A stretch of 64,000 nucleotides of DNA from the NCBI GenBank assembly GCA_016787785.1, contig JAEUTO010000008.1, forward strand, positions 1 through 64,000, in the 5' to 3' direction. The stretch is from Bacteroidia bacterium (GTDB taxonomy: Bacteria > Bacteroidota > Bacteroidia > B-17B0 > Aurantibacillaceae). The notes beneath the pieces were generated by a model. The model was not told the origin of the DNA and did no database searches. It saw only the letters and a program-made list of their open reading frames with translations. Position 1 is the first letter of the stretch, and each line of letters starts with the position of its first letter. Below are positions 25,009-28,390 of the stretch, piece after piece. Position numbers and translations under genes: made by a program.

Positions 25009-26421
25009 TTAATCGAAGATCTTTCCGGGGTTAAAAATATAATTAGGGTCGAATACTTTTTTAATGTTCTTCATTAACTCCAGGTGATACTGACTAAACA
25101 CAATTGGCAGATAACTTTTTTGTACCAGGCCAATGCCGTGTTCGCCACTAATAGTGCCGCCTAAGGCTTTACACAACTCAAATATTTCTGTAATACCCTT
25201 TGGCAGATCGTTATCCCAAACGGCGTCACTTAAATCGCCTTTAATAATGTTAACGTGTAAATTACCATCACCCGCATGCCCATAACATACCGATTTAAAT
25301 CCATACTTTTTACCAATGGCTTTTACACCATTTAAAAGTGCGGGTAATTCTGCACGTGGTACGACAGTATCTTCTTCTTTGTATACACTATTACTTTTCA
25401 CTGCCTCACCCACTTTACGACGTATTTTCCATAATGCATTTTTTTGTTCTGCACTGTCGGCAAATAAAATTTCGTCACAATTGTTTTTTTGCATTACTGC
25501 ACTAATAGTTTCACAATCGCCCATTAGCACATCCACATTATTTCCGTCAACCTCAACTAACAAAAGCGCCTGCCACTCGGGTTTAATTTCAAAATTAACT
25601 TCGCCTGAATACTTTATGCTCCACTCTATGGCGTCGCGCTCCATAAATTCCATAGCGCTTGGCACAATTCCTTCTCTAAAAACTTCGCCAACCGCTTTAC
25701 AAGCATCCTCAGCAGAGTTAAAGGGAATTAACATCAACAGATCGTGTTTAGGAAGTGGAATTAATTTAAAAACAATTTTAGTTACTATACCCAAGGTGCC
25801 CTCGCTGCCAACCATTAAATGTGTAAGGTTGTAACCGGTAGAATATTTTAACGTGTTGGCTCCGGTCCAGATTATTTCGCCGTTAGGCATTACTACTTCT
25901 AAATTCAAAACATAATCTCGCGTGGTACCGTACTTAACGGCTTTTGGTCCACCACTACTATGCGCAATATTGCCACCCAAACTGCAACTTCCCCAGCTTG
26001 CCGGATCGGGAGGATAGAACAATCCTAACTTCTTTACTTCTTCCTGAAAAATATAATTAATTACCCCGGGTTCTACGGTTGCCTGTAAGTTACGCTCATC
26101 AATTGAAAGGATCTTGTTGAATTTTTCCATACTCAATAACACGCCGCCTTTAATGGGCAATGCCCCGCCACTTAAGCCCGTACCCGCACCGCGCGTGGTT
26201 AATGGAATTTTATTGTTGTTACAAATTTTAGCAATAGCTGCTACCTGCTCTACTGTTTGAGGCTTTACAACCACATCAGCAAAAAAAACAAGATCCTCGG
26301 TCTCATCCTGTCCGTATTTTTCCAGTTGTTCTTTGTCGGAACTAATGAAGTCGCTACCAACAAGGCTTTCGAGCTCCCTGAAGGTTATTGACGTTACCTT
26401 GTTATAATTAATGCTTGTCAT
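25009..26421 (-). CDS. FAD-linked oxidase, GlcD / D-lactate dehydrogenase type
   Basis: 470 residues, the usual length for GlcD. The N-terminal PCMH FAD-binding domain shows PLTTRGAGTGLSGGALP (about 75-92) and the SSGGPKAVKYGTTRDYVL segment (about 160-175). The C-terminal FAD-oxidase domain has GHAGDGNLHVNI (about 390) and GGTISGEHGIG (about 430), both substrate or FAD contacts. Members oxidise glycolate, D-lactate or other 2-hydroxyacids and pass electrons to quinone or a partner Fe-S protein. No glcE/glcF partner lies alongside, so a single-subunit D-2-hydroxyacid dehydrogenase is more likely. Upstream is the repeat-flanked GxxExxY gene, divergently oriented. Confidence 0.93.
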   Translation of the reverse strand: MTSINYNKVTSITFRELESLVGSDFISSDKEQLEKYGQDETEDLVFFADVVVKPQTVEQVAAIAKICNNNKIPLTTRGAGTGLSGGALPIKGGVLLSMEKFNKILSIDERNLQATVEPGVINYIFQEEVKKLGLFYPPDPASWGSCSLGGNIAHSSGGPKAVKYGTTRDYVLNLEVVMPNGEIIWTGANTLKYSTGYNLTHLMVGSEGTLGIVTKIVFKLIPLPKHDLLMLIPFNSAEDACKAVGEVFREGIVPSAMEFMERDAIEWSIKYSGEVNFEIKPEWQALLLVEVDGNNVDVLMGDCETISAVMQKNNCDEILFADSAEQKNALWKIRRKVGEAVKSNSVYKEEDTVVPRAELPALLNGVKAIGKKYGFKSVCYGHAGDGNLHVNIIKGDLSDAVWDNDLPKGITEIFELCKALGGTISGEHGIGLVQKSYLPIVFSQYHLELMKNIKKVFDPNYIFNPGKIFD

Positions 26422-26505
26422 TTAAAAATATTAATATAAAAGTAATAATTTTGAGGCTAGATAAAATTTATTGCAGATTTATAATTAACAATTTACAATT
26501 AATAA

Positions 26506-26526
26506 TTAACCACATAGACACATAGT
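26506..26526. repeat. Left arm of a perfect 21-bp inverted repeat
   Basis: The arm begins TTAAC and contains two tandem octamers, CACATAGA and CACATAGT. It ends 4 nt before the ATG of the GxxExxY gene and is the exact reverse complement of 26956-26976. The 13 bases 26501-26513 are also found identically at 54641-54653. Confidence 0.95.
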
Positions 26527-26530
26527 ATAG

Positions 26531-26956
26531 ATGGATGGTAAAATTATTACAAAAAAGTATCTTGATGAGTTAACTTATGAAGTGGTTGGTTCAGCAATTG
26601 AAGTGCATAAAACCTTGGGGCGTGGATTATTGGAAAGTGTCTATCATCAATGTATGCAGCAGGAGTTACGACATAGAAAAATAAATTTTTGCACAGAGAT
26701 GAAAATCCCTTTAACCTATAAAGAAACGCAACTTAATCTTGATTTCAGGTGTGATCTTTTTATTGAAAATTGTCTCGTTACTGAATTAAAATCTATAAAC
26801 GGCACTATCTCTGTTTTTGAAGCGCAGCTTCTAACCTATATGAAGCTTTTAAAAGTGCCAAAAGGTATTCTTATAAATTTTAATTGCACTAATATATTTG
26901 GCGAAGGTCAAAAAACGTATGTAAATGAATATTTTAAATTATTAAATGAAAAGTAA
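26531..26956 (+). CDS. GxxExxY protein (PD-(D/E)XK nuclease-superfamily fold)
   Basis: 141 residues with the family signature GLLESVY (about 35-41). A PD-(D/E)XK-like core is present: Asp in LDFRCDLFI (about 73-81) followed by ELKSI (about 88-92), the usual D...ExK arrangement. GxxExxY proteins are widespread, patchily distributed and biochemically poorly characterised. The gene is wrapped precisely by a perfect 21-bp inverted repeat. The left arm ends 4 nt upstream of the ATG, and the right arm starts on the last base of the stop codon. This suggests it moves, or once moved, as a unit with its repeats. Confidence 0.93.
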   Translation: MDGKIITKKYLDELTYEVVGSAIEVHKTLGRGLLESVYHQCMQQELRHRKINFCTEMKIPLTYKETQLNLDFRCDLFIENCLVTELKSINGTISVFEAQLLTYMKLLKVPKGILINFNCTNIFGEGQKTYVNEYFKLLNEK

Positions 26957-26976
26957 CTATGTGTCTATGTGGTTAA
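26956..26976. repeat. Right arm of the 21-bp inverted repeat
   Basis: This arm is the exact reverse complement of 26506-26526. It begins on the final A of the GxxExxY stop codon and ends in GGTTAA, 14 nt before the TatD-like GTG start. No exact target-site duplication is evident outside the arms. Confidence 0.95.
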
Positions 26977-26990
26977 AAATATAAAGCAGA

Positions 26991-27638
26991 GTGTTTATTA
27001 ATATACATACACATTTTCAATTATACGACGCCAATATAGAATTGGTAAACCTGAATATGGATTCTACTGTAAAGGCCAATCATTATTCTTACGGCTTGCA
27101 CCCATGGCATTTGGATAAAACAACTTATGAAGAGCAACTGGCCAAATTAAAAATAGTAGCCCACGAAAAACGTTGTTTGGCTATTGGTGAATGTGGTTTA
27201 GATAAAATAAGTAAGACCGATTTTGATTTTCAGACGGAAGTTTTTATTGAGCAGATAAAAATTGCTAATGAAATAAATAAACCTTTGATCGTGCATTGTG
27301 TTAAAGCTTTTAACGAGCTTATAAACTGTTTGAATTTAAATGATAACACAGTGCCTGTTATTGTGCATGGCTATAACAATAACGACAATATTGCAAGAGT
27401 TTTAGTTAATCAGGGTTATTATTTTTCGTTCGGAAAAGCGCTGCTGGGCTACGAATCAAACGCTGCAAAAGCAATAAGAATTGTTGGACGAAAGAATTTT
27501 TTCCTGGAGACCGATGATAGCGATCTTTCAATAAAATACATTTACAAAAAAGCTGCGGAGCTTTTAGGAATTGACGAAGAAATAATTAAACAACAAATAC
27601 AAAGTAATTTTGAAACTGTTTTTAAAACAACATTATAA
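26991..27638 (+). CDS. TatD-family metal-dependent hydrolase (short form)
   Basis: 215 residues from a GTG start that puts the family-defining metal motif HTHF at residues 5-8. Other TatD motifs follow: GLHPWHL (about 36), AIGECGLD (about 60-67), the metal-binding His in LIVHC (about 97), VHGY (about 124) and the ETDDSD carboxylates (about 175). TatD enzymes are Mg-dependent DNases or phosphoesterases. At about 215 residues it is shorter than the 255-260 of E. coli TatD but matches a compact Bacteroidota subgroup. The stop overlaps the tcdA ATG (TAATG), so the two are coupled. Confidence 0.88.
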   Translation: MFINIHTHFQLYDANIELVNLNMDSTVKANHYSYGLHPWHLDKTTYEEQLAKLKIVAHEKRCLAIGECGLDKISKTDFDFQTEVFIEQIKIANEINKPLIVHCVKAFNELINCLNLNDNTVPVIVHGYNNNDNIARVLVNQGYYFSFGKALLGYESNAAKAIRIVGRKNFFLETDDSDLSIKYIYKKAAELLGIDEEIIKQQIQSNFETVFKTTL

Positions 27639-28390
27639 TGGATACAAGTTGGATGGAACGCACCTCGTTATTGGTGGGAAAAAAAGGACTGGAAAAATTA
27701 AATAACGCGCATGTACTTATTGTTGGACTTGGTGGTGTAGGATCTTATGCTGCAGAAGCCATTGCCAGGAGCGGCGTTGGTAAAATGACAATTATTGATG
27801 GTGACACCGTTGACCCCACTAATCGTAACAGACAACTACAAGCTTTGGTTTCAACACATGGGCAAAACAAAGCGCACTTAATGGGTGAAAGAATTAAATT
27901 GATCAATCCGGAGATCGATCTTACCGTTGTAGATTCTTTTAAAACACCCGACGACATGAAAGAATTCATGAAACAAAAATTTACTTATGTTATTGATGCC
28001 ATAGATAGCATTTCGCCAAAATTATATCTATTACAAATGGCCTATTACAATAACCAACGTATTATTTCAAGTATGGGTGCAGGTGGTAAAATGGACCCTA
28101 CCCAGATACAGGTGGTAGATATTTCTAAAACGGAGGTTTGCCCAATGGCCCAGTATGTGCGAAAACGTTTGCGCTACATGAACATTTATAAAGGCATTAA
28201 ATCTGTTTTTAGTGCCGAGAATCCGGCAAAACACTCAATCATGAAAACAGACGGAAGCAAATATAAAAAATCAGCCTATGGTACAATTTCTTACTTACCG
28301 GCAGCATTTGGTTTAACCTGTGCATCGGTTGTTATTAGAGATATTGTTGAATGGAAGGAAGTAAAAACGCCTAAGAAAAAAGCGAAATAA
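27638..28390 (+). CDS. tcdA: tRNA threonylcarbamoyladenosine dehydratase (TcdA/CsdL)
   Basis: 250 residues of the E1/ThiF/MoeB superfamily. The nucleotide-binding GLGGVGSYAAEAIARSGVG lies at about 31-49, DGDTVDPTNRNRQ (about 55-67) contains the ATP-binding Arg/Asn pair, and DAIDSISPK (about 116) follows. TcdA cyclises t6A37 of ANN-decoding tRNAs to ct6A using ATP. The C-terminal part is of the YgdL type rather than the MoeB or ThiF type, with no paired CxxC zinc motifs. It is translationally coupled to the TatD-like gene. Confidence 0.92.
   Translation: MDTSWMERTSLLVGKKGLEKLNNAHVLIVGLGGVGSYAAEAIARSGVGKMTIIDGDTVDPTNRNRQLQALVSTHGQNKAHLMGERIKLINPEIDLTVVDSFKTPDDMKEFMKQKFTYVIDAIDSISPKLYLLQMAYYNNQRIISSMGAGGKMDPTQIQVVDISKTEVCPMAQYVRKRLRYMNIYKGIKSVFSAENPAKHSIMKTDGSKYKKSAYGTISYLPAAFGLTCASVVIRDIVEWKEVKTPKKKAK

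Follow-up and report, generated by a model that had tools for sequence, protein, structure and literature searches.

The closest described counterparts of the locus analysed here are the REP/BIME/REPIN repeats and their RAYT (TnpA-REP) genes, in which an enzyme gene lies between two inverted copies of a dispersed repeat. RAYT genes have been described as always flanked by inverted REPs, as coevolving with them and as correlating with REP abundance (PMC2817692), and also as vertically inherited, single-copy genes (PMC8049555). Their product is a Y1 HUH transposase and the REPs are GTAG-headed palindromes. The REP/RAYT hairpins are kept by compensatory change, the repeats are extragenic and the enzyme gene is long retained (PMC2817692, PMC8049555). 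A second comparison is offered by MITEs, short non-autonomous copies whose terminal inverted repeats are also those of a longer element with a gene, the parent insertion sequence. The third concerns the intervening sequences (IVSs) of the 23S rRNA: that of Coxiella encodes a member of the S23 four-helix-bundle family and carries terminal inverted repeats together with tandem heptamers, and the origin and function of IVSs are described as unclear (PMC4990558).

The window, i.e. the whole stretch of 64,000 nucleotides that we analysed, contains a GxxExxY gene (26531..26956, + strand, 141 aa) whose ATG lies at 26531 and whose stop codon ends at 26956. The gene is enclosed by two arms. The left arm core (26506-26526, +, TTAACCACATAGACACATAGT) is the exact reverse complement of the right arm core (26956-26976, -, ACTATGTGTCTATGTGGTTAA), and each is built of two tandem octamers: CCACATAG (26510-26517) and ACACATAG (26518-26525) on the left, CTATGTGT (26957-26964) and CTATGTGG (26965-26972) on the right. 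On both points, the perfect 21-bp inverted repeat and its octamer composition, we agree with an earlier note on this DNA. With three mismatches allowed, the arm 16-mer occurs in only two places of the window, both at the unit, for 0.25 expected. The boundaries given in that note hold for the arm cores but not for the full extent, which is nearer 26497-26985: conservation among copies reaches about 9-10 nt beyond the arms as a AAAATTTAA-type tract, so that the arms including this AT-rich tract span 26497..26526 (+) and 26956..26985 (-). Likewise, the framing of the gene “to the base” is exact in the window and does not hold as a rule. Across relatives 0-158 nt separate the end of the left arm from the start codon, and up to 175 nt separate the stop codon from the right arm.

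The left neighbour is a glcD-like FAD oxidase gene (25009..26421, -), a host gene that is a conserved neighbour in relatives; the right neighbour is a tatD-like hydrolase gene (26991..27638, +), which in about 20 relatives is separated from glcD by a short spacer alone, the unit being missing. GxxExxY is the sole ORF of the unit, in line with the reported absence of a transposase. That absence extends to the Y1 (RAYT) type in the whole genome, where a search for Y1_Tnp (PF01797) gave no match while positive controls were detected; RAYT-driven REPs are thereby ruled out.

The GxxExxY protein belongs to its family according to the TIGR04256 HMM (124 bits for a curated cut-off of 35), and PF13366 (PDDEXK_3) scores 121 bits for a cut-off of 22. 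The single-sequence AF2 model was poor, and an alignment-based model was used instead (pLDDT 93.7). Its nearest solved folds in Foldseek are Cas4 SSO0001, RecE, ACE1 and RecB, with modest scores. No variation is seen among 66 relatives at E35, D75, E85, K87, Q99 and Y103, E85-x-K87 corresponding to the ExK motif. By its predicted fold and by the active-site layout E, D, ExK and QxxxY, both shared with the nuclease domains of Cas4, RecE and RecB, the protein is a putative RecB/Cas4-like PD-(D/E)XK nuclease. Unlike these enzymes it consists of a single minimal domain, and neither Cas1/Cas2, nor a helicase, nor an Fe-S cysteine cluster is evident. The dN/dS between three orthologues is about 0.05, i.e. 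strong purifying selection, which indicates that the protein is functional and retained; RAYTs, in contrast, are reported to be fast-evolving. An anti-phage defence protein was rejected as a candidate, no PADLOC model matching, and so was a phage-borne gene, since phage records gave no match and plasmid records only eight, distant ones. Among the open-access papers searched, two name the GxxExxY family and neither deals with its function; literature searches with the arm sequences returned nothing relevant.

The arms belong to a family dispersed in this genome (4.6 Mb), where 63 matches with at most two mismatches were found, 29 forward and 34 reverse, for 3 with the reversed pattern used as control. 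Almost all of them face inward in pairs, at a distance of about 120-140 bp, as short gene-less elements. There are only two long pairs, each with a GxxExxY gene inside, and one of these genes is dead: the second pair (contig C6:228.4-228.9 kb) encloses a broken copy with stop codons. In 61 short elements, from this genome and relatives, the conserved end consists of the AAAATTTAA tract plus CCACATAGNNACATAG and stops about 10 nt outside. Gene-bearing and gene-less copies have the same ends, as MITEs do with their parent elements. The short copies differ from MITEs in that they are no internally deleted versions of the gene-bearing unit and possess a conserved hairpin of their own. This central hairpin is present in most of the 61 elements, with a median stem score of 9 (shuffled sequences: median 5, maximum 7). 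The 61 elements display 41 different stem sequences, hence the pairing is maintained while the sequence varies, as expected for a covarying hairpin. The four elements tested for ssDNA folding gave z-scores of -4.3 to -6.5. With RNAalifold the outer arms alone were paired and compensatory pairs did not emerge, since the central hairpins fail to align column by column; they were therefore scored per element. No element locus had an Rfam match above the gathering score, which eliminates a known structured RNA as a candidate, and in the Rfam scan of the window tRNA alone was matched, with no rRNA.

Two observations lie beside this family. A third GxxExxY gene of the genome (L002, G000:C10:194043-194387) belongs to a distant clade and has inverted ACGAAT-type repeats, not CACATAG. 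In the relative G076, one locus (L393, C1:794300-813300) departs from the usual arrangement in close inward pairs: it holds a cluster of many CCACATAGACACATAG copies in the same direction, and reverse copies follow some 15 kb away. This cluster could be an amplified array.

Most GxxExxY genes of 80 relatives, which were taken from a named genome collection, lie between inverted arms of the AACCACATAGNNACATAG type, in Bacteroidota, Ignavibacteriaceae and Pyrinomonadaceae/Acidobacteria. An inverted-repeat score of at least 14 was reached by 57 of the 78 GxxExxY genes vs 5 of 331 neighbouring ORFs, and three of these five are themselves flanked by CACATAG repeat copies. Neighbouring ORFs served as the control here, an earlier cross-locus control having been spoiled by the shared motif. 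For the other GxxExxY clades the same score was reached by 49/114 genes vs 11/600 in the cross-locus control. Altogether inverted tandem ~8-mers flank the majority of 192 GxxExxY genes, and in the phylum-wide sample the arms of the other clades are of the types CACNGAG, CGCNRAG, CACAAAG, CRCRGATT and, for a few, ACKAAT.

Motif and protein clade go together. The clade of the window was defined, for the motif count, by a score of at least 200 with a model built from proteins only, the arms having no part in the definition. Its 81 members comprise 65 genes with CACATAG arms, none with another motif and 16 without scorable arms. Outside the clade (n = 111), 91 genes have another motif, a fraction to be taken as descriptive since the motif classes were named after viewing part of the same data, and a single one has CACATAG; that gene (L115) is frameshifted and is a clade member according to its source search. 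Well-supported branches of the tree give CACATAG one origin, spanning Bacteroidota, Ignavibacteria and Acidobacteria. The pairing of this nuclease clade with its repeat is thus well supported.

At the scale of genomes, GxxExxY genes are found in 122 of the 247 sampled in the phylum, and the exact MCACATAGNNACATAG in 20 of the 247, all of which hold some GxxExxY gene. With the cognate clade set at a score of at least 189, the repeat is present in 12/16 genomes with the clade vs 8/231 without it (Fisher p 2.5e-12; p 1.3e-8 when only genomes with any GxxExxY gene are considered), these phylum-level p values being inflated by the shared ancestry of related, non-independent genomes. Repeat and protein co-segregate, with a correlation between copy number and cognate gene, as for REP and RAYT. 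There are exceptions: eight genomes have the exact repeat and no clade member (e.g. G192 with 20 copies and G245 with 18), four have a clade member and no exact repeat, and within one genus the contrast in copy number is not significant (p 0.11).

Filled and empty sites were compared. Three genomes have the unit between glcD and tatD: this genome, UBA2475 (93% protein identity) and MGR_bin351 (92%). In about 20 same-genus relatives this spacer is short, typically 70-150 bp, and the unit is absent, which provides the empty sites whose mapping had been proposed. Among the empty genomes, G270 is a closer relative of UBA2475 than the window; presence is thus patchy, whether by loss, by replacement or by gain on several occasions. 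The earlier note had described a self-contained, repeat-associated, mobile-like unit, to which it opposed a pattern of arm-less homologues with glcD and tatD synteny everywhere. That pattern is not the one observed, since the two nearest homologues keep both the synteny and the arms, and the other homologues have the arms and not the synteny. The gene-less copies with the same ends, the clade-specific motifs, the filled and empty sites and the absence of a transposase from the unit all favour the mobile-like unit.

Two other sites show the same contrast. Between tatD and the next gene (27629..27640) UBA2475 (L070) has a gene-less CACATAG element of about 130 bp, its insertion also including 20-30 bp outside the arms; the window and MGR_bin351 (L071) have no such element. 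In another, unrelated genus, four genomes have a CACAGAG/CACAAAG-armed unit directly behind a stop codon, a fifth retains a decayed form made of the arms and a GxxExxY tail, and three lack it. This second filled/empty site is independent of the glcD-tatD case. Neither the tatD site nor the empty site of the second genus shows a clear target-site duplication, the flanks having diverged. The lack of a DDE or tyrosine transposase distinguishes the system from MITEs and insertion sequences, and the lack of a clear duplication may do so too. Orthologous sites of the short elements show turnover, with a nested insertion and with elements exchanged for those of other octamer families, and for most of this genome's own elements no clean empty state is found.

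Some of these sites deserve mention. In the relative G247, short elements with CACTAATT/CACGAATT arms and their own central hairpin stand where this genome has CACATAG elements (L258/L262), and one such element is nested inside a CACATAG element (L250). G248 (L243) has a plain hairpin of the intrinsic-terminator type, GCCACATAG-CTCTAAA-CTATGTGGCTTTTTT, at the position that corresponds to a full element of this genome (L059:934-1070), which suggests that the element collapsed to, or arose from, a terminator. Two empty glcD-tatD spacers, L439 (G271) and L438 (G266), hold apparent remnants of other arms, TTGACTATTGACTAT-like and AACCGCAAAGA respectively, hinting that this spacer was struck repeatedly.

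The locus is probably the gene-bearing member of a REP/RAYT-like repeat family that uses a Cas4/RecB-type PD-(D/E)XK nuclease in place of an HUH transposase. The system works like REP/RAYT and yet is not a member of it, the enzyme being unrelated and the arms, made of tandem octamers and not of GTAG-headed palindromes, being built differently. Hairpins kept by compensatory change, an extragenic location and a long-retained enzyme gene are common to both. Against this reading stand the lack of a clear target-site duplication, the 20-30 bp inserted outside the arms near tatD, the genomes in which repeat or clade member occurs alone, the 16 clade genes with no scorable arms, and the similar framing of four-helix-bundle genes. 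The GxxExxY protein would recognise the tandem octamers of its own clade as inverted arms, after their extrusion as a hairpin or cruciform, and would nick or resect them. In this way a structured copy would reach new positions, by insertion or templating, close to the 3' ends of genes and to operon junctions, and gene-less copies that share the arms would be mobilised in trans. The gene-bearing unit would sit co-directional with its neighbours, apparently on host transcription, and would eventually decay to arms-only remnants. Judging from sequence comparisons, the protein may bind the arms and may cut or process them; its substrate would be DNA rather than RNA, and the best explanation is that it, and not another factor, would move the elements. 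If the pairing holds, it would give the GxxExxY family a role, explain large intergenic repeat sets and provide nuclease/target pairs with a clade-varying recognition code readable from genomes. A nuclease and its matching repeat, clade by clade in many bacteria, would constitute an undescribed partnership, similar to known mobile repeat systems and relying on an unrelated enzyme.

Transcription of the unit bears on the alternatives. In 62 of 77 loci the gene-bearing unit reads in the same direction as its two neighbours, and host-driven transcription fits since the start codon comes immediately after the arm. The window is an exception, glcD being divergent from GxxExxY. Upstream of the unit, TAATTTTG (26446..26453, +) resembles the Bacteroidota -7 promoter motif, TAnnTTTG; it stands where the empty relatives have their TAAGTTTG-like motifs in the tatD leader, and it may drive GxxExxY and then tatD together. 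The predicted RNA of the unit closes with a 21-bp stem made by the arms, so their pairing in the transcript, evoked previously, is plausible. This stem and the location of units inside transcription units would also suit a selfish insertion acting at the RNA level, as in the 23S rRNA IVSs: the RNA stem would be cut (e.g. by RNase III) or would terminate transcription, the gene would be harmless between host genes, the nuclease would act on RNA or do something unrelated, and spread would occur by recombination or another route. In the Coxiella IVS, indeed, the terminal stem measures 28 bp and the S23 ORF is preceded by tandem heptamers (PMC4990558), and both systems enclose a small orphan gene in a stem whose inverted ends carry short tandem repeats; four-helix-bundle genes, the type encoded in 23S IVSs, can be framed in the same way (see below). 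The unit nevertheless differs from an IVS by its intergenic location, outside rRNA, and by its protein fold. This explanation supplies no mobility route for gene-less copies with the same arms and their own hairpin, and co-segregation of motif and protein is unexpected for mere insulator arms. We consider it unlikely.

Rather improbable is the proposal that the short elements are host-selected bidirectional terminators or 3'-end structures, the GxxExxY gene having been captured between two of them or using them as operators. It would account for the T-rich tracts after the arms, for the plain terminator at one orthologous site and for the avoidance of divergent intergenic regions (0/30 elements in this genome and 2/33 in relatives, from gene-pair orientations that rest on mechanical ORF calls). 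Filled and empty sites, nesting and replacement by other octamer families are, however, signs of turnover, and clade-specific motifs over three phyla are unlike host terminators. We give still less credit to an unrecognised enzyme, encoded elsewhere in the genome, that would move all elements with these arms, GxxExxY being cargo or accessory. GxxExxY has no transposase fold and the eight genomes with the repeat and no clade member would fit such an enzyme, but in this genome nothing other than GxxExxY is found between the arms, and it is this protein, not the host, that the motif tracks.

The REP/RAYT-like reading can be extended, tentatively, to an undescribed class of mobile repeats, in which a stand-alone Cas4/RecB-like nuclease would read a clade-specific tandem-octamer code and spread itself together with gene-less hairpin elements. 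It would form one branch of wider “octamer-armed” small genes including four-helix-bundle genes, and hence the 23S rRNA IVSs; this larger picture is possible rather than probable. For four-helix-bundle genes (TIGR02436), inverted tandem ~8-mer arms reach a score of at least 14 in 12/32 cases vs 1/400 in the cross-locus control. This framing and the repeats of the Coxiella IVS suggest the wider class, and the shared style means that such framing is not exclusive to the nuclease. The intergenic four-helix-bundle copies may be linked to the 23S rRNA IVSs, for which the octamer-armed pattern suggests a possible origin. The TIGR02436 loci L403-L432 and L068-L069 have inverted tandem arrays of other motifs, e.g. 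AAGTATCAAGAT, CAGCTATTAG and AAGTAACTGAG.
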